Shown here piece by piece: positions 3,029 to 56,203 of a stretch of 64,000 nucleotides of DNA (within the stretch, counting starts at the first letter, position 1; the number at the start of each line of letters is the position of its first letter). Position numbers and translations under genes: made by a program. The notes under the pieces are model-generated. The model was not told where the DNA came from. It was given only the letters and a program-made list of their open reading frames with translations, and did not search any database. The DNA is from Phycisphaerae bacterium RAS1. GTDB lineage: Bacteria > Planctomycetota > Phycisphaerae > UBA1845 > Fen-1342. Location: contig SMLU01000001.1 of the NCBI GenBank assembly GCA_007859745.1, positions 124,001-188,000 of the forward strand. Direction: 5' to 3'.

Positions 3029-5947
3029 ATGGCACGCGACTCCGATTGGTACTCTGAGGAAGGCGCGCTGATCAAGGCGATTCGCAGCAGCCGCTGGACG
3101 GCGCCGCCCGATCCGGGCATCGCCGGCTACTCCGAGTGGTGCGAATTGCGGCGCGGCGGACAGGGCGTGGTGTTCAGCGCCACGCAGCTTTCGACCCGGC
3201 GGCGCGTCGCGGTGAAGATTCTCCACGGAGGGCCGTTCGCCTCGCCCCAGGGCTGGGCGCGATTTGAGCGCGAGATCGACCTGATCGCCGGCTTTCAGCA
3301 CCCGCACATCGTCCGGCTGTACGACCGCGGATTGACCGACCAGGGACTGCCCTATTACGTGATGGAGCTGATCGAGGGGGTCGGGCTGGACGATCTTCTG
3401 GCGCCGTCCGGCGTTCGCGACGCGCGCCGCGCCGACAATGGGACTCCCGCGGCGGCCCTGCCCGTGCGTCGAACGCTGGAGCTGCTGGCGCAGATCTGCG
3501 AAGCGGTGAACTACGCCCATCAGCGAGGCGTCATTCACCGCGATTTGAAGCCGGCCAATATCCTTCTCGACCCGGACGGGGCGCCGCATGTGCTGGATTT
3601 CGGACTTGGCAAGCGGGTCGCGGAGGAACCCGGCGAAAACACGCGCACATCGCTGAGTCGAACCGGGGACTTTGCCGGTTCGCTGCCCTGGGCCAGCCCC
3701 GAGCAGCTCGAAGGAGAGCCATCGCGTATTGACGTTCGCACCGACGTCTACGCGCTGGGCGTGTTGTCGTTTCAGATGCTCACGGGGTGCTCCCCGTACC
3801 CCGCTGGCGGTGGGCTGCGCGAACTCGTGACGCACATCCGGGAGTGGAACCCGAAACGGCCGAGCTTGCTGCGAAGCGGGATCGACGCCGACGTGGACAT
3901 CATCGTGCTCAAGTGCCTGAGCAAGGAGCCGCTCCGCCGCTACCAATCGGCAGGCGAGCTGGCCCGCGACCTGCGGCACTACCTGGCCGGCGAGCCGATT
4001 GAGGCCAAGCGCGATTCGGCGATCTACCTGCTGCGGAAACGCGTTCGCCGTCATCGCGCCGTGCTGGGACTGGCTGCGGCGCTGGCCCTGGCGCTTCTGG
4101 CCGGGCTCACGGCATCGCTGCGCTTCTGGGCGCAGGCCGCCGGCCAGCGCGACGAGGCCCGGCGACAAGCCGCGGTTGCGCGGGCCGTGAACGCGTTCCT
4201 GCACGACACGCTGGCGGCGGGCGACCCCTACGCCGCCCGCCCGCTATTTGAACCGGCGCGTCAGGCTGGCGTAAGCGGCGCGCTCGATGTCGCGTCGGCG
4301 CGGGTCGCGACCGCGTTCGCCGGCCAGCCCGAAGTGGAAGCCGCTGTCAGGGCGACGCTGGGAGCGACGTATCTGCACCGCGGCGAAGTGGACAAGGCGG
4401 CCCCGCACATTGAACAGTCGCTTGCGCTTCGCCGCACGCTCCTGGGCGAGCGGCATCCGGACACGCTGACCGCACTGGAGCTGGTCGCAGAGCTTCGCGA
4501 GGCGCAGCGCCAGTATGCCGAGTGCGAACGGTTGATCCTCCAGGTCTGGGAAATACGACGCGCAACTTTGGGCGACGACCACGCCGACACGCTGCGAGCG
4601 CTTGGCGCTTTGGGCTGGGCGAGGCATCGCCTGGGACGCGAGCAGGAGGCCGAGGCGGCGGTGCGCCAGGCGCTGGCGGGCCAGGTGCGACTGCTGGGAG
4701 AAAGTCACGCCGAAACGCTCGACACCATGACGGGCCTGGCCTGGGTGCTGCAGGGCATGAACCGGATCGACGAAGCGTACGCCGTCGCTCGCCGAGCCTC
4801 AGACGGGTTCCAACGCCTGCTGGGAACCGGGCACCCGCTCGCAATCAACTCACTGGATCCCCTTGCGTCGCTGCTGATGGCCCAGGGACGCCTGGACGAA
4901 TCCGAGCGGCTGTACCGCGACGTCCTGGACGGCTCCCGCCGTGTGTTGGGGGAGGCGCACCCGGATACGCTCACGTCGCTGGGCAATGTCGCGCGCGTCA
5001 CATATGAGCGCGGCCGGTATGCAGAAGCGGAGGCGCTTTACCGCGAGCAGCTCGATCGCATGCACCCCATCCTCGCGGCCGACCATCCGGCGCGCTGCAC
5101 CGTGCTCTACAGCCTGGCGCTGACGCTCAAGATGCAGAAGAAGTACGCAGAATCGGAGAGATTCTACGGCGAGGCCATGGACGCGGCCCGCCGCGCGCTG
5201 GGGGCCGACAATACACTGACGATCCAGATTTTGTACGGGTGGGGTGAAGTGCTGCGGGAACTGGGTCGCTTCTCCGAGGCCGAGCCTCGGCTGCGCGACG
5301 CTTCTGACGGCTATCGCCGGACCGTCGGCGAGCAGGACGACAAGACGTTGATCGCAATGAACTCGCTGGCTGGAACGCTCGGCGACCTGAACCGGCCGGC
5401 CGAAGCCGAACCGATCTACCGCAGCGTGCTGGAGGTCCGGCGGCAGCGGCTGGGAAACGAGCACACGGACACGCTGACGACGCTCAACGACCTGGCGCTA
5501 CTGCTCAAGAATGCCGGCCGCCTGGCGGAAGCCGAGCCGCTCTACCGCGAGGTGGTCCGGACGCAGCGCGAAGCGCTCGGCCCCTTGCACCGCCACACGC
5601 TGATCGGCGCGTTCAACCTGGCGCAACTTCTCTGCGAGAAGGGCGACTGCGACGAGGCGGAGTCGCTTTTTCTCGATGTGATTCGCAGCGCACCGGACGC
5701 GCTGACGCCGGACCACTGGTACTGCGGCTGGTTCCGGCTCGGTTTCGGCCGATGCCTGATGAAATCCGGCCGCCTGGCCGAAGCTGAATCGCACCTGCTC
5801 AGCGCCCATTCCCACCTGGCCAGCGTGCTGGGACCGGATGACCGCCGCACCACAAACGCGGCCCGCTGTCTGGCCGACCTGTATGTCGCGTGGGAGCGAC
5901 CGGCGGAGGCGGCCGTCTGGCGGGCTCTTTCCGAGCCGCGACCGTGA
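3029..5947 (+). CDS. Membrane-anchored Ser/Thr protein kinase with TPR array
   Basis: 972 residues. The kinase domain spans about residues 30-320: glycine-rich loop LRRGGQGVVF, VAVKIL lysine, catalytic loop HRDLKPANIL with Asp172, DFGLGK and SPEQLEG activation segment, then DVYALGVLSFQML. A single transmembrane helix follows at about 342-365. The remainder has about eleven 42-residue TPR units, each with a core like LGERHPDTLTAL. The likely arrangement is a cytoplasmic kinase and an exported TPR sensor or scaffold. It follows an ECF sigma gene, a pairing known in planctomycetes in which the kinase is thought to act on the sigma factor. The last five codons and the stop lie inside a palindromic repeat, so the native C-terminus may have been replaced. 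Confidence 0.93.
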   Translation: MARDSDWYSEEGALIKAIRSSRWTAPPDPGIAGYSEWCELRRGGQGVVFSATQLSTRRRVAVKILHGGPFASPQGWARFEREIDLIAGFQHPHIVRLYDRGLTDQGLPYYVMELIEGVGLDDLLAPSGVRDARRADNGTPAAALPVRRTLELLAQICEAVNYAHQRGVIHRDLKPANILLDPDGAPHVLDFGLGKRVAEEPGENTRTSLSRTGDFAGSLPWASPEQLEGEPSRIDVRTDVYALGVLSFQMLTGCSPYPAGGGLRELVTHIREWNPKRPSLLRSGIDADVDIIVLKCLSKEPLRRYQSAGELARDLRHYLAGEPIEAKRDSAIYLLRKRVRRHRAVLGLAAALALALLAGLTASLRFWAQAAGQRDEARRQAAVARAVNAFLHDTLAAGDPYAARPLFEPARQAGVSGALDVASARVATAFAGQPEVEAAVRATLGATYLHRGEVDKAAPHIEQSLALRRTLLGERHPDTLTALELVAELREAQRQYAECERLILQVWEIRRATLGDDHADTLRALGALGWARHRLGREQEAEAAVRQALAGQVRLLGESHAETLDTMTGLAWVLQGMNRIDEAYAVARRASDGFQRLLGTGHPLAINSLDPLASLLMAQGRLDESERLYRDVLDGSRRVLGEAHPDTLTSLGNVARVTYERGRYAEAEALYREQLDRMHPILAADHPARCTVLYSLALTLKMQKKYAESERFYGEAMDAARRALGADNTLTIQILYGWGEVLRELGRFSEAEPRLRDASDGYRRTVGEQDDKTLIAMNSLAGTLGDLNRPAEAEPIYRSVLEVRRQRLGNEHTDTLTTLNDLALLLKNAGRLAEAEPLYREVVRTQREALGPLHRHTLIGAFNLAQLLCEKGDCDEAESLFLDVIRSAPDALTPDHWYCGWFRLGFGRCLMKSGRLAEAESHLLSAHSHLASVLGPDDRRTTNAARCLADLYVAWERPAEAAVWRALSEPRP

Positions 5948-5985
5948 GGGAGAGGATCCTGCAAAACCGCTTGCTGACGCGCGCT
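5930..5985. repeat. Palindromic repeat family A, overlaps the kinase stop codon
   Basis: The block TCCGAGCCGCGACCGTGAGG starts at 5930 and the other half (CCGCTTGCTGACGCGCGCT) ends at 5985. The kinase gene reads Ser-Glu-Pro-Arg-Pro-stop from the left half, using the TGA within ACCGTGAGG. Related copies are at 10160-10222, 34955-35026, 56021-56082 and 56175-56203. Confidence 0.85.
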
Positions 5986-8221: not shown

Positions 8222-8320
8222 TCCGAACCCGCCGCGCCAAGCGGCGGGGTGTCGTCCGCGGCCTGTGGAGCGCCGATCGCTAACGACCGTCATCCCGCCG
8301 CTTGGCGCGGCGGGTTCGGA
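8222..8320. repeat. 99-bp palindromic element, family D
   Basis: Two perfect 27-bp inverted arms (8222-8248 and 8294-8320; outer part TCCGAACCCGCCGCGCCAAG) flank a 45-bp asymmetric centre. Nearly identical elements lie at 39587-39685 and 43479-43576, there with the centre in the opposite orientation. It occupies most of the 328-base gap between the S9 peptidase and lpdA; the only other signal there is the AAGGAG ribosome binding site of lpdA. Confidence 0.92.
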
Positions 8321-9994: not shown

Positions 9995-11569
9995 ATGCAC
10001 TTCTTTCTCGACCGATTCGAAGCCACCGTCCGATCGCGGCGCGAGGCGCCCGCCGCGTGCGATCAGAGCCTCGTTACGACGTTCGAGTCGTTCCGGGCGC
10101 TGGCTTGCGGCGTCGGCGGCGTCTTGCTCAATACGATCGATGCCGGATCGCGGGGCGAATCCGAGCCACGCGCTTCAGCAAGCGGAGCTCCAAGCACCGC
10201 TCCCTTACGGTCGCGGCTCGGAAAGACAATCGCCGGCGGCGCCGACGGCGAGCGGCACATCGGCATCCTCCTCCCCACCTCCGCCGCCGCGGCGGTCAGC
10301 ATTTTTGGTTGCTGGTACGCCGGGCTGACGCCTGTTCCGCTGAACTTCATGCTCCCGCCGGACGAGTTGAAGCGGATCGTCGCCGACGCCGGAATCACGC
10401 TGATTGTCACGATCGAGCGCTTCGCCCCGCTGGCCGAGGCTGCGGGGGCGACGCCGCTAGTTCTGTCGGGCAAAACGACGCTCATTCCCGGCGAGCTGGC
10501 CGCGCCGCCGGCAGACAAGGACCAGACCGCCGTCATCCTCTACACGTCCGGCACGTCCGGCGATCCGAAGGGCGTCTGCCTCTCGTTCGACAATCTCGTG
10601 AGCAATGCGCTGGCCTGCATCGAGCACGCCGGCATCACGCCCGATCAGAGCTTTCTAAGCGTCCTGCCGCAGTTTCACAGCTTCGGCTTCACCGCCATGA
10701 CCGTCACGCCGCTGCTTCTTGGCGCGACCGTTCACTATCTGCCGCGCTTCACTCCGGCCGCGATTCTCGACACAGTCAGCGAAAAGCACATCAGCGTCTT
10801 CATGGGCGTCGCCAGCATGTATGGCGTGCTGCTGGGCATGAGCGCGGCGGAGCCGGCGATGTTCGCGTCGCTGCGCCTGGCGGTGAGCGGCGGCGAGCCG
10901 TTGCCGGACAGCATCGCGGACGGATTCGAGCAGCGTTTCGGCGTGCGGATCATGCAGGGCTACGGCCTGACCGAAACGTCGCCGGTTGCGACGCTGAACA
11001 CACCGGCGGCGAATCGGCACGGCTCTGTGGGCCGCCCGTTGCCGGGCGTGCGCGTCTGGGCTGCGGACGAGGCCGGGCGCGACCGTCCCGCGGGCCAGGA
11101 GGGCGAGTTGATCGTCGCGGGGCATTGCGTGATGAAGGGCTATCACAACAAACCTGAAACGACGGCGGCGGCGCTGCTGGGCGACGGGTCGCAGGACCGC
11201 GCGCTGCGAACCGGCGACATCGGCCGCGTCGATGCCGATGGGTACGTGTTCATCACCGGCCGGGCGAAAGAGATGATGATCGTCGCCGGCGAGAACGTCT
11301 TCCCCGGCGAGATCGAGCGCGTGCTCGCGACGCACCCCGCGGTCGCAGAGGCGGCGGTGATCGGCGTGCGAAGCGAGCGGCACGGCGAGCGGCCGGTCGC
11401 GTTCGTGGTGCTGCGCGAAGCGGCGGCGGTCGACGCCGCCGCGCTCCAGACATACTGTCGCGAGCGGCTGGCGGGGTACAAGGTCCCGCGTGAGGTCTAC
11501 TTCGCCGCCGATTTCCCGCGGGCCGCGACGGGTAAGATCATGAAGCGGCTCCTGAGACCGCCGGGATAG
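9995..11569 (+). CDS. AMP-dependent acyl-CoA/acyl-ACP ligase with an in-frame palindromic insert
   Basis: 524 residues, ANL superfamily, activates a fatty or other carboxylic acid through an acyl-adenylate. The P-loop is ILYTSGTSGDPKGV, followed by LPQFHSFGFT, YGLTETSPV, RTGDIGRVDADGYVFITGR and the C-terminal catalytic lysine in RAATGKIMKRLL. The LPQFHSFGFT segment resembles the acyl-ACP synthetase domain of Aas, but no acyltransferase domain is present. Residues 56-76 (SEPRASASGAP...) are encoded by a 63-bp palindromic repeat, exactly 21 codons, inserted in the N-terminal domain before the GILLPTSAAAAVSIFG helix. The last codons lie at the start of a tandem 105-bp duplication. Confidence 0.88.
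   Translation: MHFFLDRFEATVRSRREAPAACDQSLVTTFESFRALACGVGGVLLNTIDAGSRGESEPRASASGAPSTAPLRSRLGKTIAGGADGERHIGILLPTSAAAAVSIFGCWYAGLTPVPLNFMLPPDELKRIVADAGITLIVTIERFAPLAEAAGATPLVLSGKTTLIPGELAAPPADKDQTAVILYTSGTSGDPKGVCLSFDNLVSNALACIEHAGITPDQSFLSVLPQFHSFGFTAMTVTPLLLGATVHYLPRFTPAAILDTVSEKHISVFMGVASMYGVLLGMSAAEPAMFASLRLAVSGGEPLPDSIADGFEQRFGVRIMQGYGLTETSPVATLNTPAANRHGSVGRPLPGVRVWAADEAGRDRPAGQEGELIVAGHCVMKGYHNKPETTAAALLGDGSQDRALRTGDIGRVDADGYVFITGRAKEMMIVAGENVFPGEIERVLATHPAVAEAAVIGVRSERHGERPVAFVVLREAAAVDAAALQTYCRERLAGYKVPREVYFAADFPRAATGKIMKRLLRPPG
10160..10222. repeat. Palindromic repeat family A inside the acyl ligase gene
   Basis: 63 bp beginning TCCGAGCC and ending GGCTCGGA, with the internal half-blocks CGCTTCAGCAAGCGG and CCGCTCCCTTACGGTCGCGG seen in the intergenic copies. 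It is in frame and contains no stop. Confidence 0.88.
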
Positions 11570-13528: not shown

Positions 13529-13742
13529 GCCATGCCGACGGCCTTTGCGTCGGCATGCCCACACAGGAGGCCATGGGCGCGCCACGCGAACTTGACCAGC
13601 TCCGGCTGAACCGCTGAACCGCAGCCGCGGCTGGTACTGGGTCAGTTTGGGGGACCGGCCTCTGGCCGGTCTCGTTCTCGCCGAAGAAGCAAAGACCGGC
13701 CAGAGGCCGGTCCCCCAAACTGACCCAGTACCCCGCGGCTGC
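13529..13742. repeat. Large inverted repeat and hairpin upstream of rpmE
   Basis: This lies in the 332-base gap between nadE and rpmE. A first hairpin (GCCGACGGCCTTTGCGTCGGC, about 13534-13554) is related to one at 52338-52362. It is followed by an inverted repeat with perfect 40-bp arms (13633-13672 and 13693-13732) around a 20-bp loop; a further 10 bp (13621-13630 with 13733-13742) pair after a 2-base bulge. Each arm itself contains the smaller palindrome ACCGGCCTCTGGCCGGT. No gene is visible in the gap. Confidence 0.92.
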
Positions 13743-31840: not shown

Positions 31841-32362
31841 TCAATAGAGAATGCAAGGCGACGTGATCGAGAACGACCCGCGCACCAGCAGCGGCGATTC
31901 GACGGTCAGCCGGTAGTCGTGGTTGCCGACGACTTCGATGATCGCCGGGCCGAGGCTGTCAAACAGGCTGGCCTGCAGCGAGCCGTTGCCGCCCAGCTTG
32001 ACGGACGAATTCACCACCAGCCGGGGCGTGACGCTGGAGGGCTTGGAGAATTCGATCCGGCCGTTGACGGTGACGCGTTGCGTATTGCTGGCGCTGTAGG
32101 CGATCGAGAGGTCCTTGCCCTTGATCGCCAGGACGCCGCCGGAATTCACCGTGACGGCGAAGGCGGCTTCGTTCGAGTTCTCGACGCGGCAGGTCTGGCC
32201 GTTGAGGATCGTCGCAGTGTCGCCAGATCCCGGTCGCCCTGCCGGAGACCAATTCTCCGTCTGGCTCCAGTCACCGGCGGTCACGGCGAACGTAAAGTCT
32301 GTGGCGTACGCGGTGACCGCAGTCATTGTCAACACGAGTGGAATGATGGATGCGCGTTTCAT
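31841..32362 (-). CDS. Small secreted beta-rich protein
   Basis: 173 residues. MKRASIIPLVLTMTAVTAYA is a signal peptide. The mature part (GDWSQTENWSPAGRPGSGDT, then alternating short strands) resembles the repeats found in planctomycete extracellular beta-helix or autotransporter-associated proteins. The start at 32362 has AGGAG eight bases upstream and shares four bases (ATGA) with the stop of the preceding dockerin gene, so the two are translationally coupled. Function unknown. Confidence 0.75.
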   Translation of the reverse strand: MKRASIIPLVLTMTAVTAYATDFTFAVTAGDWSQTENWSPAGRPGSGDTATILNGQTCRVENSNEAAFAVTVNSGGVLAIKGKDLSIAYSASNTQRVTVNGRIEFSKPSSVTPRLVVNSSVKLGGNGSLQASLFDSLGPAIIEVVGNHDYRLTVESPLLVRGSFSITSPCILY

Positions 32363-33681
32363 GGCTTGTACTCCTGATCAGGAGAGAAGGCCGCGCCGGA
32401 CGGTCGAAAGGGTGCCCAGTTCGGTCTCTGAAGCGATGGTTCATGTGGTGAAGACGTTGCGGACGCACATTGCACGGTGCTCGTCATGCGGCCCGCGGCA
32501 ACGATGTCTACAAACGGGTTGATGTCAAGGATGTTGACATTCCCGTCGCCATTGGTGTCGGCCAGCAGCGGGTCGCAGTAGTGTGCTTCTGAGTAGGCGA
32601 CGGCATCTTCGAGCGCCAAGACGAAGGGATTGACGTCGAGGATGTTCACGGCGCCGTCGCAGTTGAGGTCACCGAGCGGATACCGCCGGTTGTACGCCGC
32701 CGCGACCTGAAACGGCGTCCCGGCGCTCCACCCGATCTCGCCCAAGTCGTTGATTCGACCGTCGACGTTCCAGAAAGCGTCGAACGTCATCTGGCGCAGC
32801 GTGCCGTTCACGAGTGACCACATCTGCCAGGTTTGGTTCTCCTCGTGCCATCGATTGCATGCGATGTCGCCGCGAAGGTTGATGGCCGCGTTCGCACACG
32901 AGTTGATTGCGACGCTCGTTACGCCGTTTTCCCACCGGAGGATCTCGAACCGGTCGGCGGACGGGCGCCATTGCCAAGTGCAGATGCCGACGTTGTTGAT
33001 ATCTGGCACCTGCGGTTCGATGAGGTTTTGCGTGAGTTGCGTGACCTGACCATCAGCGTACCGCATGATCTCCGCAGTCCAGGGATTGTCGCAATCGTTG
33101 TAGCGCGTCCAAATGACTTGATCCAGATCGTTCAGGCGGGCGCCCTGGTTGTTGAATCCGTCCTGGCTGAGTTTCTGCTGCGTCATGCCGTCGTAGAAGT
33201 AGATATCGCTGTCGGCGTTGGCGCAGCCCTGCGGAAGGCGCTTGTTCCAGACCATGTGCCCCAGGTTGTTGATCTTGGGCGCATAGTCCTGAAAAGCGTC
33301 ATTGGTAATCAACGTGATCTGGTCATTCTTGTACATCGCTACTTCGAGCGTTCCGCCCGGGCCGACGCCGCGGCTCCAGACGATCGTCCCGTCATCGTTG
33401 ATGTCGGGAAACTCGTCGCGGTAGGTGTCGAGCGTGAGCTGGTAGATCACGCCGTTGTCATACAGCATGATCTCCGACGTGTTCGGATCGTCCCATACGA
33501 AGCGCGTCGAGAAGACGATCTGGCTGTGATTGTTGATCGCGCCCACGCGGTTGAAGTACGTCCAGTCGGTCAGGTATTCGCGGTGATAGCCCGGAGGCGT
33601 CTGGGCCGCGGACAGCGCCGCCAATGCCAGGCACAGCGCCGCTCCGAACGCTCCGCGCATGGATATGGATGCGTGTTTCAT
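32359..33681 (-). CDS. Secreted repeat protein with dockerin-like C-terminal loops
   Basis: 440 residues. A signal peptide (ISMRGAFGAALCLALAALSAA) is followed by six or seven repeats of about 50 residues with cores such as INDDGTIVWSRG, INNLGHMVWNKR and INDLGEIGWSAG, consistent with a beta-propeller. Near the C-terminus are two dockerin-like calcium loops (GDLNCDGAVNILDVNPFV and DTNGDGNVNILDINPFVDIV). Unlike the other two dockerin proteins here it continues about 50 residues past the second loop. ATG 33681 has GGAG upstream; an ATG 15 bases earlier does not. Function unknown, extracellular. Confidence 0.82.
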   Translation of the reverse strand: MKHASISMRGAFGAALCLALAALSAAQTPPGYHREYLTDWTYFNRVGAINNHSQIVFSTRFVWDDPNTSEIMLYDNGVIYQLTLDTYRDEFPDINDDGTIVWSRGVGPGGTLEVAMYKNDQITLITNDAFQDYAPKINNLGHMVWNKRLPQGCANADSDIYFYDGMTQQKLSQDGFNNQGARLNDLDQVIWTRYNDCDNPWTAEIMRYADGQVTQLTQNLIEPQVPDINNVGICTWQWRPSADRFEILRWENGVTSVAINSCANAAINLRGDIACNRWHEENQTWQMWSLVNGTLRQMTFDAFWNVDGRINDLGEIGWSAGTPFQVAAAYNRRYPLGDLNCDGAVNILDVNPFVLALEDAVAYSEAHYCDPLLADTNGDGNVNILDINPFVDIVAAGRMTSTVQCASATSSPHEPSLQRPNWAPFRPSGAAFSPDQEYKP

Positions 33682-33718
33682 GATTGTGGTCTCCATTTGG
33701 ATTCGGTCCGCGACGCGT

Positions 33719-34455: not shown

Positions 34456-37392
34456 TCAGACGATGAGGTTGACCAGCCGCCCCTTCACCACCACCGAGCG
34501 CTTGATCGGCTTGCCGGCCAGGTGTTCGGCGGCGGCGGCGGCGGCGGCGGAAATGACGGCGTCGTCCGCCGCGTCGGCCGAAACGGTGATGCGGGCCTTG
34601 ATCTTGCCGTTGAGTTGCACGGCCAGCTCAACCGATTCGTCGCGCGTCAGAGCTTCGTCGAACGCCGGCCAGGGGGCGTGCGCCAGCGACTGGGAATGGC
34701 CCAGCGCCCGCCACAGCTCTTCGCAGACGTGCGGGGCGAAGGGGGCGAGAATCAGCACGAAGCGCTCGATCTGATCTCGCGCCAGCGCGGCGGCTTTCTG
34801 GGCTTCATTCACCCAGACGATCATCTGGGCGATGGCGGTGTTGTAGGCGAAGCGCGGGATGTCCTCGGTCACTTTGCGGATGGTCCTGTGCAGCAGGCGC
34901 TCCACGTCCGCATCGCGCCGGTCGCCGATTTTGGCGCTGAGGCGCGCAGAATCAGAGCCGCGACCGTGAGGGAGCGGTTCGCGCGGCGCGCCCTCCGGAG
35001 CAACCGCTCCCTCACGGTCGCGGCTCGGATAGTCGCGCGGCCCATCGCGGCGCGGATTGTCGCCGGGTTCGTCGCGGCTCGGATCGACGCGCGCGTCGTC
35101 CTGCTCGTCGATCACCAGCCGCCAGACGCGCAGCAGGAAGCGGTGCACCCCGATGATGTCGCGCGTGTTCCAGGGCTTGCTCGCTTCCAGCGGCCCCATG
35201 TACATCTCGTACAGCCGCAGCGTGTCCGCCCCGTACTCGGCGATGATCGAATCGGGGTTGACGACGTTCTTTTTGCTCTTCGACATCTTCTCAAAGAGCT
35301 GCACCACCGGACGGTCCTGCCAGTAATGCGTCGTCGTGTGCTCGCTGTGGCCGATGCGCAGCGCGGCCGGCGGCCCCTCGCTCACTTCCTCGGCCGGGAC
35401 GTACGTGCCGCGCTCGTCGTGATAGGCGGCGGCCCCGATCATGCCCTGGTTGAAGAGCTTCTGAAACGGCTCGGGCGTCGACACGCAGCCCAGGTCGTAG
35501 AGCACCTTGTGCCAGAAGCGGGCGTAGAGCAGGTGGAGCACCGCGTGCTCGGCTCCGCCCAGGTAGAGATCGACGCCGCCGGTTTTGGGCGAGCCGTCAG
35601 CGCGCCGGCCGCTCATCCAGTAGCGCTCGACCTTCGAATCGACAAAGGCCGTTTCGTTGTGCGGGTCAAGGAATCGCAGGTAGTACCAGCAGGACCCGGC
35701 CCACTGCGGCATGGTGTTCAGCTCGCGCCGCAACAGCGCGTCGCCGCGCTTCACCGTCGCCCATTCCCGGGCGCGCGACAGCGGCGTCTGCGGCTGGGCG
35801 TTCGGGTTGTCGCTGGCCTGCGGCTTGAAGTCATCCATCGCGGGCAGCGCCACCGGCAGCTCGCGCTCGTCGACCGCCTCGATGAGTCCGTCCGGGCGGT
35901 AGAGGATCGGGAACGGCTCGCCCCAGTAGCGCTGCCGCGAGAAAAGCCAGTCGCGCAGCTTGTACTGCACCGTGCCTTCACCCAGGTCGCGCTCTTCGAG
36001 CCAGCGAATCACCGTGCGCTTGGCCTCCGGCGTGGGCAGGCCGTTGATCGTGCATTGCCCCTCAAACGTCGCCTGCGGCGGCGAATTCACGCCCACGCCG
36101 TCGCCGACGTAGCCGCGCCACTCCGTCGCGTCGTCTTGCGGCCGCACGACCTGCACCACCGGCAGGCCGAAGGTCCGGGCGAATTCGAGATCGCGCGTGT
36201 CGTGTCCCGGAACGGCCATGATCGAGCCCGTGCCGTAACCGATCAACACGTAGTCCGCGACCCAGATGGGGATTGGCTGCCGGTTGACCGGGTTGACGGC
36301 GTAGGCGCCGGTGAAGACGCCGGTCTTGACCTTGCTGTCGGCGGTGCGGTCGAGGTCGGAGCGTTGACGCGCCTGAGACACGTACGCGTCGACCGCCGCC
36401 CGCTGCTCGGGCCTGGTGATGATCGACACCAGTCGATGCTCAGGCGCCAGCACCATGTACGTCGCGCCAAAGACCGTGTCCGGCCGCGTGGTGAAGACGC
36501 GGATCACGTCGCCGGCATGTTCGGCGGTCAGGTGAAAATCGATGTACGCGCCTTCGCTGCGGCCGATCCAGTTTCGCTGCATGAGCTTGATCGGCTCGGG
36601 CCAGTCCAGGCCGTCCAGGTCTAAGAGCAGCCGCTCGGCGTACTCGGTGATGCGGAGCATCCACTGCTTCAGCGGGCGGCGGAAGACGGGGTGATTGCCG
36701 CGCTCACTGCGGCCGTCATTGGTGACCTCTTCGTTCGACAGAACCGTGCCCAGCGCCGGACACCAGTTCACCGCGACTTCCGCGAGGTAGGCCAGTCGAT
36801 GCTCGGACTGGTAGGCGGCGACGGCGGCCGGCCCCTGGGCCTTCACGTCCGCCGGAATCGGCAGCGTTTCAATCCGCCGCGCGGCCCCGCGGACCTTGCG
36901 TCCGGCCGGATCGGTCCACTCCCATTCCGGGTCGTACCAGGAGTTGTAGATCCGCAGGAAGATCCACTGCGTCCAGCGGTAGTATTTTTCGTCGCAGGTC
37001 GCCAGCTCGCGATCCCAGTCGTAGCTCAGGCCGATCTTCCGGAGCTGGAGCGTGTAGGTGTCGATGTTGCTGCGGGTCGTGATGGCCGGGTGAACGCCGG
37101 TTTCGATGGCGTACTGCTCGGCGGGCAGTCCGAAGGCGTCCCAACCCATGGGGTGCAGCACGTTGTACCCGCGCATGCGCATGAAGCGCGAGAATATGTC
37201 GGACGCGATATAGCCCAGCGGGTGGCCGACGTGCAGCCCGGCCCCCGACGGGTATGGAAAGAAATCGAGGATGTAGTAGTGCGGCTTCTCGCCGCCCGGC
37301 TGGCCGGGATTGGCGGCGCGGAAGGTGTGATTCTCAGCCCAGTACGCCTGCCAGCGTGCGTCAATTTCGTTGAACGGGTGAGAGTGGCTCAT
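34456..37392 (-). CDS. leuS: Leucyl-tRNA synthetase with an in-frame palindromic insert
   Basis: 978 residues, longer than usual. The HIGH-type motif is in PYPSGAGLHVGHPLGY (HVGH at 54-57), the editing domain follows (for example FTTRPDTVFGATYMVL), and the second class I signature is KMSKSKKNVVNP near residue 700. Residues about 762-826, between a helix ending WRLVIDEQ and the helix beginning ADVERLLHRTIRKV of the anticodon-binding domain, are an Arg/Asp/Gly/Pro-rich insert; its core (about 790-813) is encoded by a 72-bp palindrome of family A. The frame is intact and the protein is presumably functional since leuS is essential. Six bases separate it from the upstream ppiD-like gene. Confidence 0.96.
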   Translation of the reverse strand: MSHSHPFNEIDARWQAYWAENHTFRAANPGQPGGEKPHYYILDFFPYPSGAGLHVGHPLGYIASDIFSRFMRMRGYNVLHPMGWDAFGLPAEQYAIETGVHPAITTRSNIDTYTLQLRKIGLSYDWDRELATCDEKYYRWTQWIFLRIYNSWYDPEWEWTDPAGRKVRGAARRIETLPIPADVKAQGPAAVAAYQSEHRLAYLAEVAVNWCPALGTVLSNEEVTNDGRSERGNHPVFRRPLKQWMLRITEYAERLLLDLDGLDWPEPIKLMQRNWIGRSEGAYIDFHLTAEHAGDVIRVFTTRPDTVFGATYMVLAPEHRLVSIITRPEQRAAVDAYVSQARQRSDLDRTADSKVKTGVFTGAYAVNPVNRQPIPIWVADYVLIGYGTGSIMAVPGHDTRDLEFARTFGLPVVQVVRPQDDATEWRGYVGDGVGVNSPPQATFEGQCTINGLPTPEAKRTVIRWLEERDLGEGTVQYKLRDWLFSRQRYWGEPFPILYRPDGLIEAVDERELPVALPAMDDFKPQASDNPNAQPQTPLSRAREWATVKRGDALLRRELNTMPQWAGSCWYYLRFLDPHNETAFVDSKVERYWMSGRRADGSPKTGGVDLYLGGAEHAVLHLLYARFWHKVLYDLGCVSTPEPFQKLFNQGMIGAAAYHDERGTYVPAEEVSEGPPAALRIGHSEHTTTHYWQDRPVVQLFEKMSKSKKNVVNPDSIIAEYGADTLRLYEMYMGPLEASKPWNTRDIIGVHRFLLRVWRLVIDEQDDARVDPSRDEPGDNPRRDGPRDYPSRDREGAVAPEGAPREPLPHGRGSDSARLSAKIGDRRDADVERLLHRTIRKVTEDIPRFAYNTAIAQMIVWVNEAQKAAALARDQIERFVLILAPFAPHVCEELWRALGHSQSLAHAPWPAFDEALTRDESVELAVQLNGKIKARITVSADAADDAVISAAAAAAAEHLAGKPIKRSVVVKGRLVNLIV
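34955..35026. repeat. Palindromic repeat family A inside leuS
   Basis: Two perfect 25-bp inverted arms (34955-34979 and 35002-35026; inner part CCGCGACCGTGAGGGAGCGG) around a 22-bp loop. It reads in frame through leuS as SRDREGAVAPEG and PLPHGRGSDS. A degenerate half copy (GTCGCGGCTCGGAT) lies nearby at 35072-35085. Confidence 0.93.
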
Positions 37393-56020: not shown

Positions 56021-56082
56021 TCCGGCCCGCAACCGTGCGGGAGCGGAGGCTGGAAACCGCTCGCTGACGCGCGCGGCTCGGA
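56021..56082. repeat. Palindromic repeat family A, intergenic copy
   Basis: Complete 62-bp element ending GACGCGCGCGGCTCGGA, 17 bases after the dockerin gene stop. Confidence 0.88.
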
Positions 56083-56174: not shown

Positions 56175-56203
56175 TCCGAGCCGCGACCGTGAGGGAGCGG
56201 AGG
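56175..56203. repeat. Palindromic repeat family A, half copy
   Basis: The left half only (TCCGAGCCGCGACCGTGAGG and following bases), directly downstream of the GNAT gene on the other strand. Confidence 0.8.

Follow-up and report, generated by a model that had tools for sequence, protein, structure and literature searches.

Mobile enzymes that lie in frame within conserved essential genes, and that rely on the host for their expression, are known from inteins with homing endonucleases. Repetitive extragenic palindromic (REP) sequences, their inverted pairs (REPINs) and REP-associated tyrosine transposases (RAYTs) form systems also called REPtrons, in which hundreds of short repeats, inverted pairs and tandem clusters accompany a repeat-flanked HUH/Y1 transposase. 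In the sections drawn on here of a 2018 survey of TnpA-REP proteins (PMC6006769), class 3 is found in Planctomycetes and is characterized by NHVH and Y----Q motifs and by flanking structures with a CnGA foot, which reach a high copy number in one named genome; the same sections report that unexpectedly long proteins were taken for fusions or errors of annotation and removed. Intragenic REPs and Rickettsia palindromic elements (RPE) are described, in the part of PMC3733652 used here, as lying in frame in real genes with 20-82 extra residues; loops are proposed there as tolerated sites for intragenic palindromic repeats, and uvr, rec and pseudouridine-synthase genes are named as targets. Here we analyze a stretch of 64,000 nucleotides (the window) from Phycisphaerae bacterium RAS1 (contig SMLU01000001.1, positions 124,001 to 188,000, forward strand), in which the leucyl-tRNA synthetase gene, leuS, carries a REPIN in frame. 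We consider it highly probable that this REPIN, a RAYT embedded in valS of the same genome as the source of its repeat family, and the recurrent embedding of REPtrons in essential enzymes together explain the observations reported below, where genomes, contigs and loci carry our own numbers (G, C and L; the genome of the window is G000).

A single leucine--tRNA ligase open reading frame (ORF) in the window encloses the palindrome. Its product scores 973.5 bits against NCBIfam TIGR00396 (cut-off 548.4), in agreement with Pfam. An earlier note on this DNA, made from the sequence alone, had pointed to a perfect palindrome with 25-bp arms inside leuS, and direct reading bears this out: the two arms are exact reverse complements of each other, the left arm being GAGCCGCGACCGTGAGGGAGCGGTT. 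The note had also mentioned a degenerate half copy nearby; a degenerate repeat is indeed present, but by eye it consists of two tandem units of 27 nt related to the repeat unit T1 described below. Because 27 nt correspond to nine codons, these units preserve the leuS frame. The features of the locus, in window coordinates, are as follows.

34456..37392, minus strand: leuS, leucyl-tRNA synthetase, 978 codons (ORF, Pfam, NCBIfam; sole intact copy found)
34955..34979, plus strand: left arm of the REPIN, a T1 REP unit (read directly, pattern match, folding)
34980..35001, no strand: spacer of the REPIN, 22 nt (read directly)
35002..35026, minus strand: REPIN right arm, an exact reverse complement of the left one (read directly, pattern match, folding)
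35029..35055, minus strand: degenerate tandem T1 unit, 27 nt, nine codons PRRDGPRDY (by eye)
35056..35082, minus strand: degenerate tandem T1 unit, 27 nt, nine codons PSRDEPGDN (by eye)
34957..35109, minus strand: part of leuS encoding loop residues 762-812 (AlphaFold model; coordinates computed by hand from residue numbers)

The palindromic element of 84 nt is predicted to fold very stably, both as RNA (-67 kcal/mol, z -7.8) and as DNA (-42.4 kcal/mol, z -8.4). A second intact leuS, a possibility raised in the earlier note, was not found in the genome among the 57 candidates, all of which were scored; the one other leuS-like stretch of note is a 3' fragment of 42 residues. As a separate observation, this fragment (83% identical, at G000:C1:717958-718080, L069 1501-1623) adjoins a REPIN as well as homologues of the genes that lie downstream of leuS in the window (31841-33696), and it looks like a rearranged partial duplication. 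Window positions 31841-32362 hold a truncated homologue, 173 codons long, of a 297-codon gene at L069 1708-2601.

The T1 REP unit is GCCGCGACCGTGAGGGAGCGG. At 30 places inspected it is mostly preceded by CCGA, and its copies occur singly, in inverted pairs and in tandem arrays. We counted 348 places (169 + 179) with at most 2 mismatches in the 5.5-Mb genome, compared with 1 (0 + 1) for the reversed-pattern control, in keeping with the earlier remark that the same DNA occurs between genes. Within the window alone the 21-nt unit has 6 matches at ≤3 mismatches, against 0.03 expected in shuffles. We conclude that T1 is a REP family and that the leuS palindrome is an in-frame REPIN of two inverted T1 units. 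A search of 464 kb of the genome returned 36 units at ≤3 mismatches in 27 clusters, eight of which lie within an open frame of at least 200 codons, so T1 is found mostly outside genes; the clear in-gene cases by Pfam in these 464 kb are leuS and carB. Of the 61 genomes in the sample of relatives, the genome of the window counted, 31 have T1 with at most 1 mismatch. Its sequence is free of stop codons in five of six reading frames, and a lone unit can be drawn as a hairpin, CCGC..CC-GTGA-GG..GCGG, of -5.1 kcal/mol. We also note that in carB of this genome (L262:17003-19999, minus strand) four T1 units are accompanied by one CCGCCGCGCCAAGCGGCGG-family unit and a AGTAGCGAG repeat, all in frame.

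The product of leuS was modelled with AlphaFold2 from an alignment with 39 relatives (mean predicted local distance difference test score, pLDDT, 85.9), and among solved structures the model comes closest to the LeuRS of T. thermophilus and that of E. coli. Residues 766-812 have a pLDDT below 50 and lie between intact helices (743-760 and 828-844), which leaves a loop of 67 residues between the modelled helices, where the earlier note had placed an expanded loop of about 65 residues between two expected helices. Loops were read in 101 of the 102 genomes of the order with a match (G072 was left out, and the anchor is poor in G075). By fixed anchors the loop of the window's LeuRS has 73 residues. 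With the same anchors it has 28-47 residues in the other 22 genomes of family f1 (28-35 in 19 of the 23), 24 residues in 44 of 45 genomes of f8, the remaining one being the poor anchor, 21 residues in 12 of 12 genomes of f4, and 21-38 residues in the 16 genomes of f7. The short loops of f1, f8 and f4, compared with the 73 residues here, indicate that the extra length goes with the repeat; the loop is not conserved at this length in lineages without the repeat, an outcome that the earlier note had asked about.

Other REP families occupy the same loop in five relatives. One REP pattern is found in the leuS loops of G007 and G043 (0 mismatches) and G014 (2 mismatches), and a second pattern in those of G016 and G026 (0 mismatches), while the next-best loops have 6 and 7 mismatches (both patterns). 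These patterns occur 100 times in G007, 5 in G043, 50 in G014, 81 in G016 and 55 in G026, with 0 in the reversed controls; the leuS copies of G016 and G026 are listed by place, and for G007, G014 and G043 the link rests on the loop sequences themselves. The two patterns are present in 17 and 8 of the 23 genomes searched, a spread that dispersed repeats would be expected to show. For the loop DNA of G019 there were 30 non-self matches at E ≤1 (with 40 of 90 candidates scored), and 17 of them converge on a single segment of about 24 nt. The nearest named LeuRS, from a Planctomycetota metagenome-assembled genome (L075), has a loop identical to that of G014. Because other REP families occupy the same loop in other genomes, we conclude that in f1 and f7 unrelated REPs land recurrently in the leuS loop and are tolerated there. 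The repeated insertion or expansion suspected in the earlier note is supported in a stronger form, and its view of an intergenic repeat inserted into a tolerated inter-helix loop agrees with the repeat counts, the loop lengths and the model. In our proposal, a REPIN of two inverted T1 units would have been inserted in frame into the LeuRS loop that separates the catalytic core from the anticodon-binding helices, and LeuRS would tolerate it because the encoded peptide forms a disordered loop and T1 is stop-free in all but one frame.

A candidate for the enzyme that moves T1 is encoded in the same genome. There are 20 Y1_Tnp matches in G000, and one of them, at C4:138 kb, lies amid T1 units: this HUH/Y1-type RAYT (C4:138089-138559) is surrounded by 12 T1 units at ≤3 mismatches, six per side. 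It is encoded in frame within the valS ORF (G000:C4:136139-140422), which has 1,428 codons (1,581 stop to stop), carries ValRS Pfam domains on both sides of the transposase, and scores 944.9 bits with NCBIfam valS (cut-off 704). ValRS of T. thermophilus is continuous across the insertion site (residues 472/474), and among relatives with matches listed for both sides the gap between them is small, for example 3 bp (G004 and G033), 9 bp (G010) and 12 bp (G012). The RAYT passes Pfam Y1_Tnp (30.8 against a cut-off of 23) and carries the motifs NHVH (HUH) and YVDEHQ (Y----Q). Neither ATG nor GTG nor TTG was found in the 30 codons upstream; by this and by its position in frame inside valS it is set apart from a free-standing gene. 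To judge by its T1 surroundings, the valS RAYT is likely the source of the family to which the leuS REPIN belongs, and T1 would most likely have been mobilised by this enzyme.

Two more RAYT-type transposases of the same genome are embedded in a similar way, one on C3 in frame inside ileS (1,436 codons) and one on C1 in frame inside gcvP (C1 ~698.4-702 kb). Solved homologues are near-contiguous at the insert points (ileS 212/219, gcvP 754/768). Each insert is flanked by a multicopy repeat family of its own, and the repeat edge at gcvP is GTAG. The gcvP insert passes NCBIfam NF047646 (REP-associated tyrosine transposase) with 85.4 bits against a cut-off of 80.

In the order to which this bacterium belongs, the valS RAYT has 74 matches in 49 of 114 genomes, and 27 of them share one open frame with Pfam domains of a host enzyme. 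The hosts are alaS in 13 cases (12 genomes, two cases in G011), purH in seven, valS in four (that of the window's genome included), leuS in one (G027, where the RAYT is located in the editing domain), an MmeI-type modification enzyme in one (G074) and mutS in one (G102, weak). The mutS case is not among the secure ones because the RAYT precedes the first MutS domain and may be an upstream gene read through, and alaS of G034 is seen on the N side alone because the contig ends there. Two further RAYTs in long frames (G059 C75, G011 C17) were excluded from the 27, as no host domain was found with them. A sample of 392 genomes of the phylum (9 candidates scored each) gave matches in 56, mostly in short frames of free-gene size; four embedded RAYTs were confirmed, in valS of G481, G311 and G485 and in pglX of G404 (RAYT at C1:7397704-7398156). 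The G404 host was taken by Pfam for a restriction enzyme, an assignment that we rejected, since NCBIfam identifies it as PglX of the BREX-2 defence system (1045 bits, cut-off 400). The embedded set analyzed below thus comprises 31 cases, 27 in the order and 4 in the phylum sample, with the long-frame rows G190, G474 and G383 outside it. Embedding is thus frequent in this order, and less so in the phylum sample.

The sites of insertion recur. The RAYT of purH is found at one site in all seven genomes, before the motif CFIKHTNACG, and those of alaS at three sites, with nine, three and one cases. In G011 (C11) an alaS ORF of 1,686 codons contains a pair of distinct RAYT domains, both in frame and each at a site of its own. 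The six relatives with a RAYT in valS (G027, G073, G078, G481, G311 and G485) carry it at slightly different points of one short linker before a G.(V/L/I).(F/V).P.RY-like motif, a site different from that in the window's genome, and all six exceed the NCBIfam valS cut-off despite the insert. In most of the linkers of alaS, of valS in the window's genome and of valS in G481 and G311, the N side has SRDR..A and the C side LP(Y/H/D)GRGS, or sequences close to these. Such are the peptides encoded by the two orientations of T1, a correspondence seen at the peptide level, with DNA aligned in the window's genome alone. The sequences show the valS arrangement in alaS, purH, ileS, gcvP and leuS as well.

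Embedded RAYTs differ from free ones in their start codons. An ATG within 30 codons upstream, without an intervening stop, is found for 4 of the 31 embedded RAYTs, compared with 25 of the 34 free ones, and any of ATG, GTG or TTG for 15 of 31 and 31 of 34; Fisher's p is 2.7e-7 for ATG (computed with 26 free instead of 25) and 2.5e-4 for any start, over cases that are not independent. The ratio of nonsynonymous to synonymous substitutions (dN/dS) in purH of G032 and G036 is 0.13 for the RAYT, 0.12 for the C part of the host, 0.34 for its N part, and 0.34 and 0.35 for the linkers. Among four further pairs it could be computed for the RAYT in two (alaS 0.12, valS 0.13), with dS near saturation. 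In the computable pairs, embedded RAYTs are thus under purifying selection. Of 25 aligned RAYTs nearly all retain HUH and Tyr, and the match of the G027 valS RAYT stops before Tyr. A tree of 72 RAYT domains, made by a quick method with G396 omitted for an inner stop, has 8 of 69 branches strongly supported. Host labels change once on this tree for purH, four times for alaS and six times for valS, where at least three changes are forced by strongly supported branches. Shuffled labels never gave values as low for purH, alaS and free RAYTs, and gave values as low for valS in 92 of 500 cases.

Taken together, these data suggest that RAYT-REP units repeatedly enter loops of essential enzymes, on the same strand and in the same frame, in this order of planctomycetes. 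The embedded RAYTs would mostly lose their own ATG and be translated together with the host enzyme, within which they form a domain; they would keep REPs moving, and their careless deletion would kill the cell. Protection from deletion may be the reason why embedding recurs, and the embedded enzyme of valS presumably moves the T1 REPs. With some reserve we lean towards a more general statement, that a group of planctomycete HUH transposases behave like inteins without splicing: mostly start-less, translated domains inside essential enzymes (alaS, valS, ileS, leuS, purH and gcvP) that have entered the same linkers more than once and seed REPINs, some of which come to lie in frame in further essential genes, leuS among them.

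Several points weigh against this proposal. We infer from sequence that the fusion proteins are made and that both halves work. In the window's genome no other ValRS was found at E ≤1e-8, and this uniqueness rests on 22 of 146 candidates scored; host-gene copy number was covered for leuS and valS of this genome. The ValRS itself reads IMNKS in place of the MSKS of the other six embedded ValRS, and could be a weakened enzyme. Its RAYT is below the NCBIfam IS200 cut-off (30.6 against 55), and the ileS insert is below that of NF047646 (66.3 against 80 bits) and, as a protein, below that of Pfam (20.3 against 23), although a six-frame search passed (25.2). In purH of G018 the HUH motif reads DRVH, its first His lost. 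Some start codon is nearby in about half of the embedded RAYTs (15/31). The embedded cases are not mutually independent, and several surely go back to a common insertion: purH fits one insertion, and in alaS nine of the 13 cases use the same site. Since a long open frame was the criterion by which embedded cases were selected, their lack of stops does not count as independent evidence. The REP patterns of the leuS loops are also common where the loop is without them, for example at 82 places in G004. Finally, a lone T1 unit is not supported as a strong hairpin, since its predicted fold is no more stable than those of shuffled sequences (z -0.9).

These points have to be set beside other explanations of the same data. 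The embedded RAYT and the REP-derived loop could be domesticated domains that serve the host enzyme, for example in binding tRNA or single-stranded nucleic acid, and that owe their retention to this service and not to selfish behaviour. Such a role would fit the purifying selection in the computable pairs, the purH insert, whose one site in seven genomes is compatible with a single origin, and the alaS site A common to nine genomes. We nevertheless hold it to be unlikely: the hosts are unrelated and include purH, gcvP and two DNA-modification enzymes, multicopy repeats flank all three inserts of the window's genome, the valS labels change six times on the RAYT tree, and relatives with ValRS matches spanning the site used here carry no insert there. 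Removal of the insert after transcription or translation, by an unknown intron or by protein splicing, would account for the tolerance of inserts of ~220-350 residues in essential enzymes. However, nine insert-bearing loci gave no Rfam match at gathering score, and hence no known intron (group I and II introns included), no intein or Hint splicing domain is among the Pfam matches of the embedded ORFs scanned, and the insertion points are variable linkers, unlike conserved splice-like junctions; this explanation seems improbable to us.

For leuS the earlier note had considered that so strong a hairpin in a coding mRNA could affect translation, and selection might maintain the palindrome for its hairpin in the mRNA, as a brake on translation or a control of leuS. 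The very stable fold of the 84-nt element speaks for this, as does its location in a domain linker, where pausing could aid folding. Against it stand the 348 places that carry the same repeat and the Rfam search of leuS at a loose threshold, in which all seven matches were far under their gathering scores, so that a known RNA was rejected. Additionally, the other 100 loops each have at least 5 mismatches to the T1 unit, and 17 other leuS loops fold more weakly per base (-0.22 to -0.51 compared with -0.58 kcal/mol here). Because the hairpin is not conserved and the folds are weaker in those 17 loops, a regulatory or pausing role is disfavoured and we consider it very improbable. Chance or artefact, in the form of spurious long open frames in GC-rich DNA or of misassembly that makes RAYTs look embedded, is hardly credible. 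Long gene-less antisense frames do exist here (731 and 687 codons), many of the genomes are drafts, and the long frames of G059 C75 and G011 C17 are without a host domain, but host Pfam domains flank the RAYT in the same frame in all 31 cases except G034 (contig end) and G102, embedding is also found in genomes listed with one contig (G032, G036, G481 and G404), and identical sites recur across different families.

Other repeats were noticed in the window and its genome. The T1 units of the window outside leuS are these.

5935..5955, plus strand: T1 REP unit, 1 mismatch (pattern match)
10197..10217, minus strand: T1 REP unit, 1 mismatch, close to the 5' end of an open frame that encodes AMP-binding enzyme domains (pattern match, Pfam)
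56026..56046, plus strand: degenerate T1 REP unit, 3 mismatches (pattern match)
56180..56200, plus strand: T1 REP unit, exact (pattern match)

In the region G000:C4:17-1120 a free-standing RAYT of 161 codons lies between arrays of the CCCGCCGCTTGGCGCGGCGGG repeat with a 41-nt spacing, and this repeat is also present in the window at 8222, 39587 and 43479. Another perfect inverted repeat of the window (13633-13672 and 13693-13732) has 40-nt arms and a 20-nt spacer, and a 16-nt tandem repeat, GTGGCACCGGTTTTTT, is found in at least 3 copies at 892-952.

Should the fusions be produced, a tRNA-charging enzyme would contain an active single-strand-DNA transposase. This would suggest how REPtrons persist for a very long time, since their careless loss harms the host, and it would add a new class of selfish element alongside inteins. 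The inserts also show to what extent aminoacyl-tRNA synthetases may be expanded, and they mark natural permissive insertion sites in these enzymes. RAYTs as in-frame parts of essential or housekeeping enzymes were not found in the literature searched (main texts of openly licensed papers), and embedded RAYTs would escape any survey in which long fusion proteins are set aside as errors of annotation, as in that of 2018.

In-gene REPs and a planctomycete-rich TnpA class with a CnGA foot are already known; the embedded transposases are the new part, and possibly a new lifestyle of selfish DNA. The T1 system shares with REPtrons the hundreds of repeats, the inverted pairs, the tandem clusters and the repeat-flanked HUH/Y1 transposase, and differs from them in that the valS transposase is no free gene, lacks a nearby start codon, and goes with a foot, CCGA, that is neither GTAG nor CGTC. 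This foot agrees with the CnGA foot of TnpA-REP class 3, and the valS RAYT has the NHVH and Y----Q motifs of that class as it is described in the sections used here (PMC6006769), while its YVDEHQ does not match the stricter class 3 motif YV[VI][AENY]EQ letter for letter. The class 3 genes of those sections are flanked by such structures, whereas the RAYT analyzed here lies in frame inside valS. In intragenic REPs and RPE, as presented in the part of PMC3733652 drawn on here, a small repeat stands alone in the gene; in the present case a gene also contains the complete transposase. Like inteins, the embedded RAYTs lie in frame inside essential enzymes; unlike inteins, they have no splicing domain among their Pfam matches, are flanked by REPs, and occupy variable linkers.

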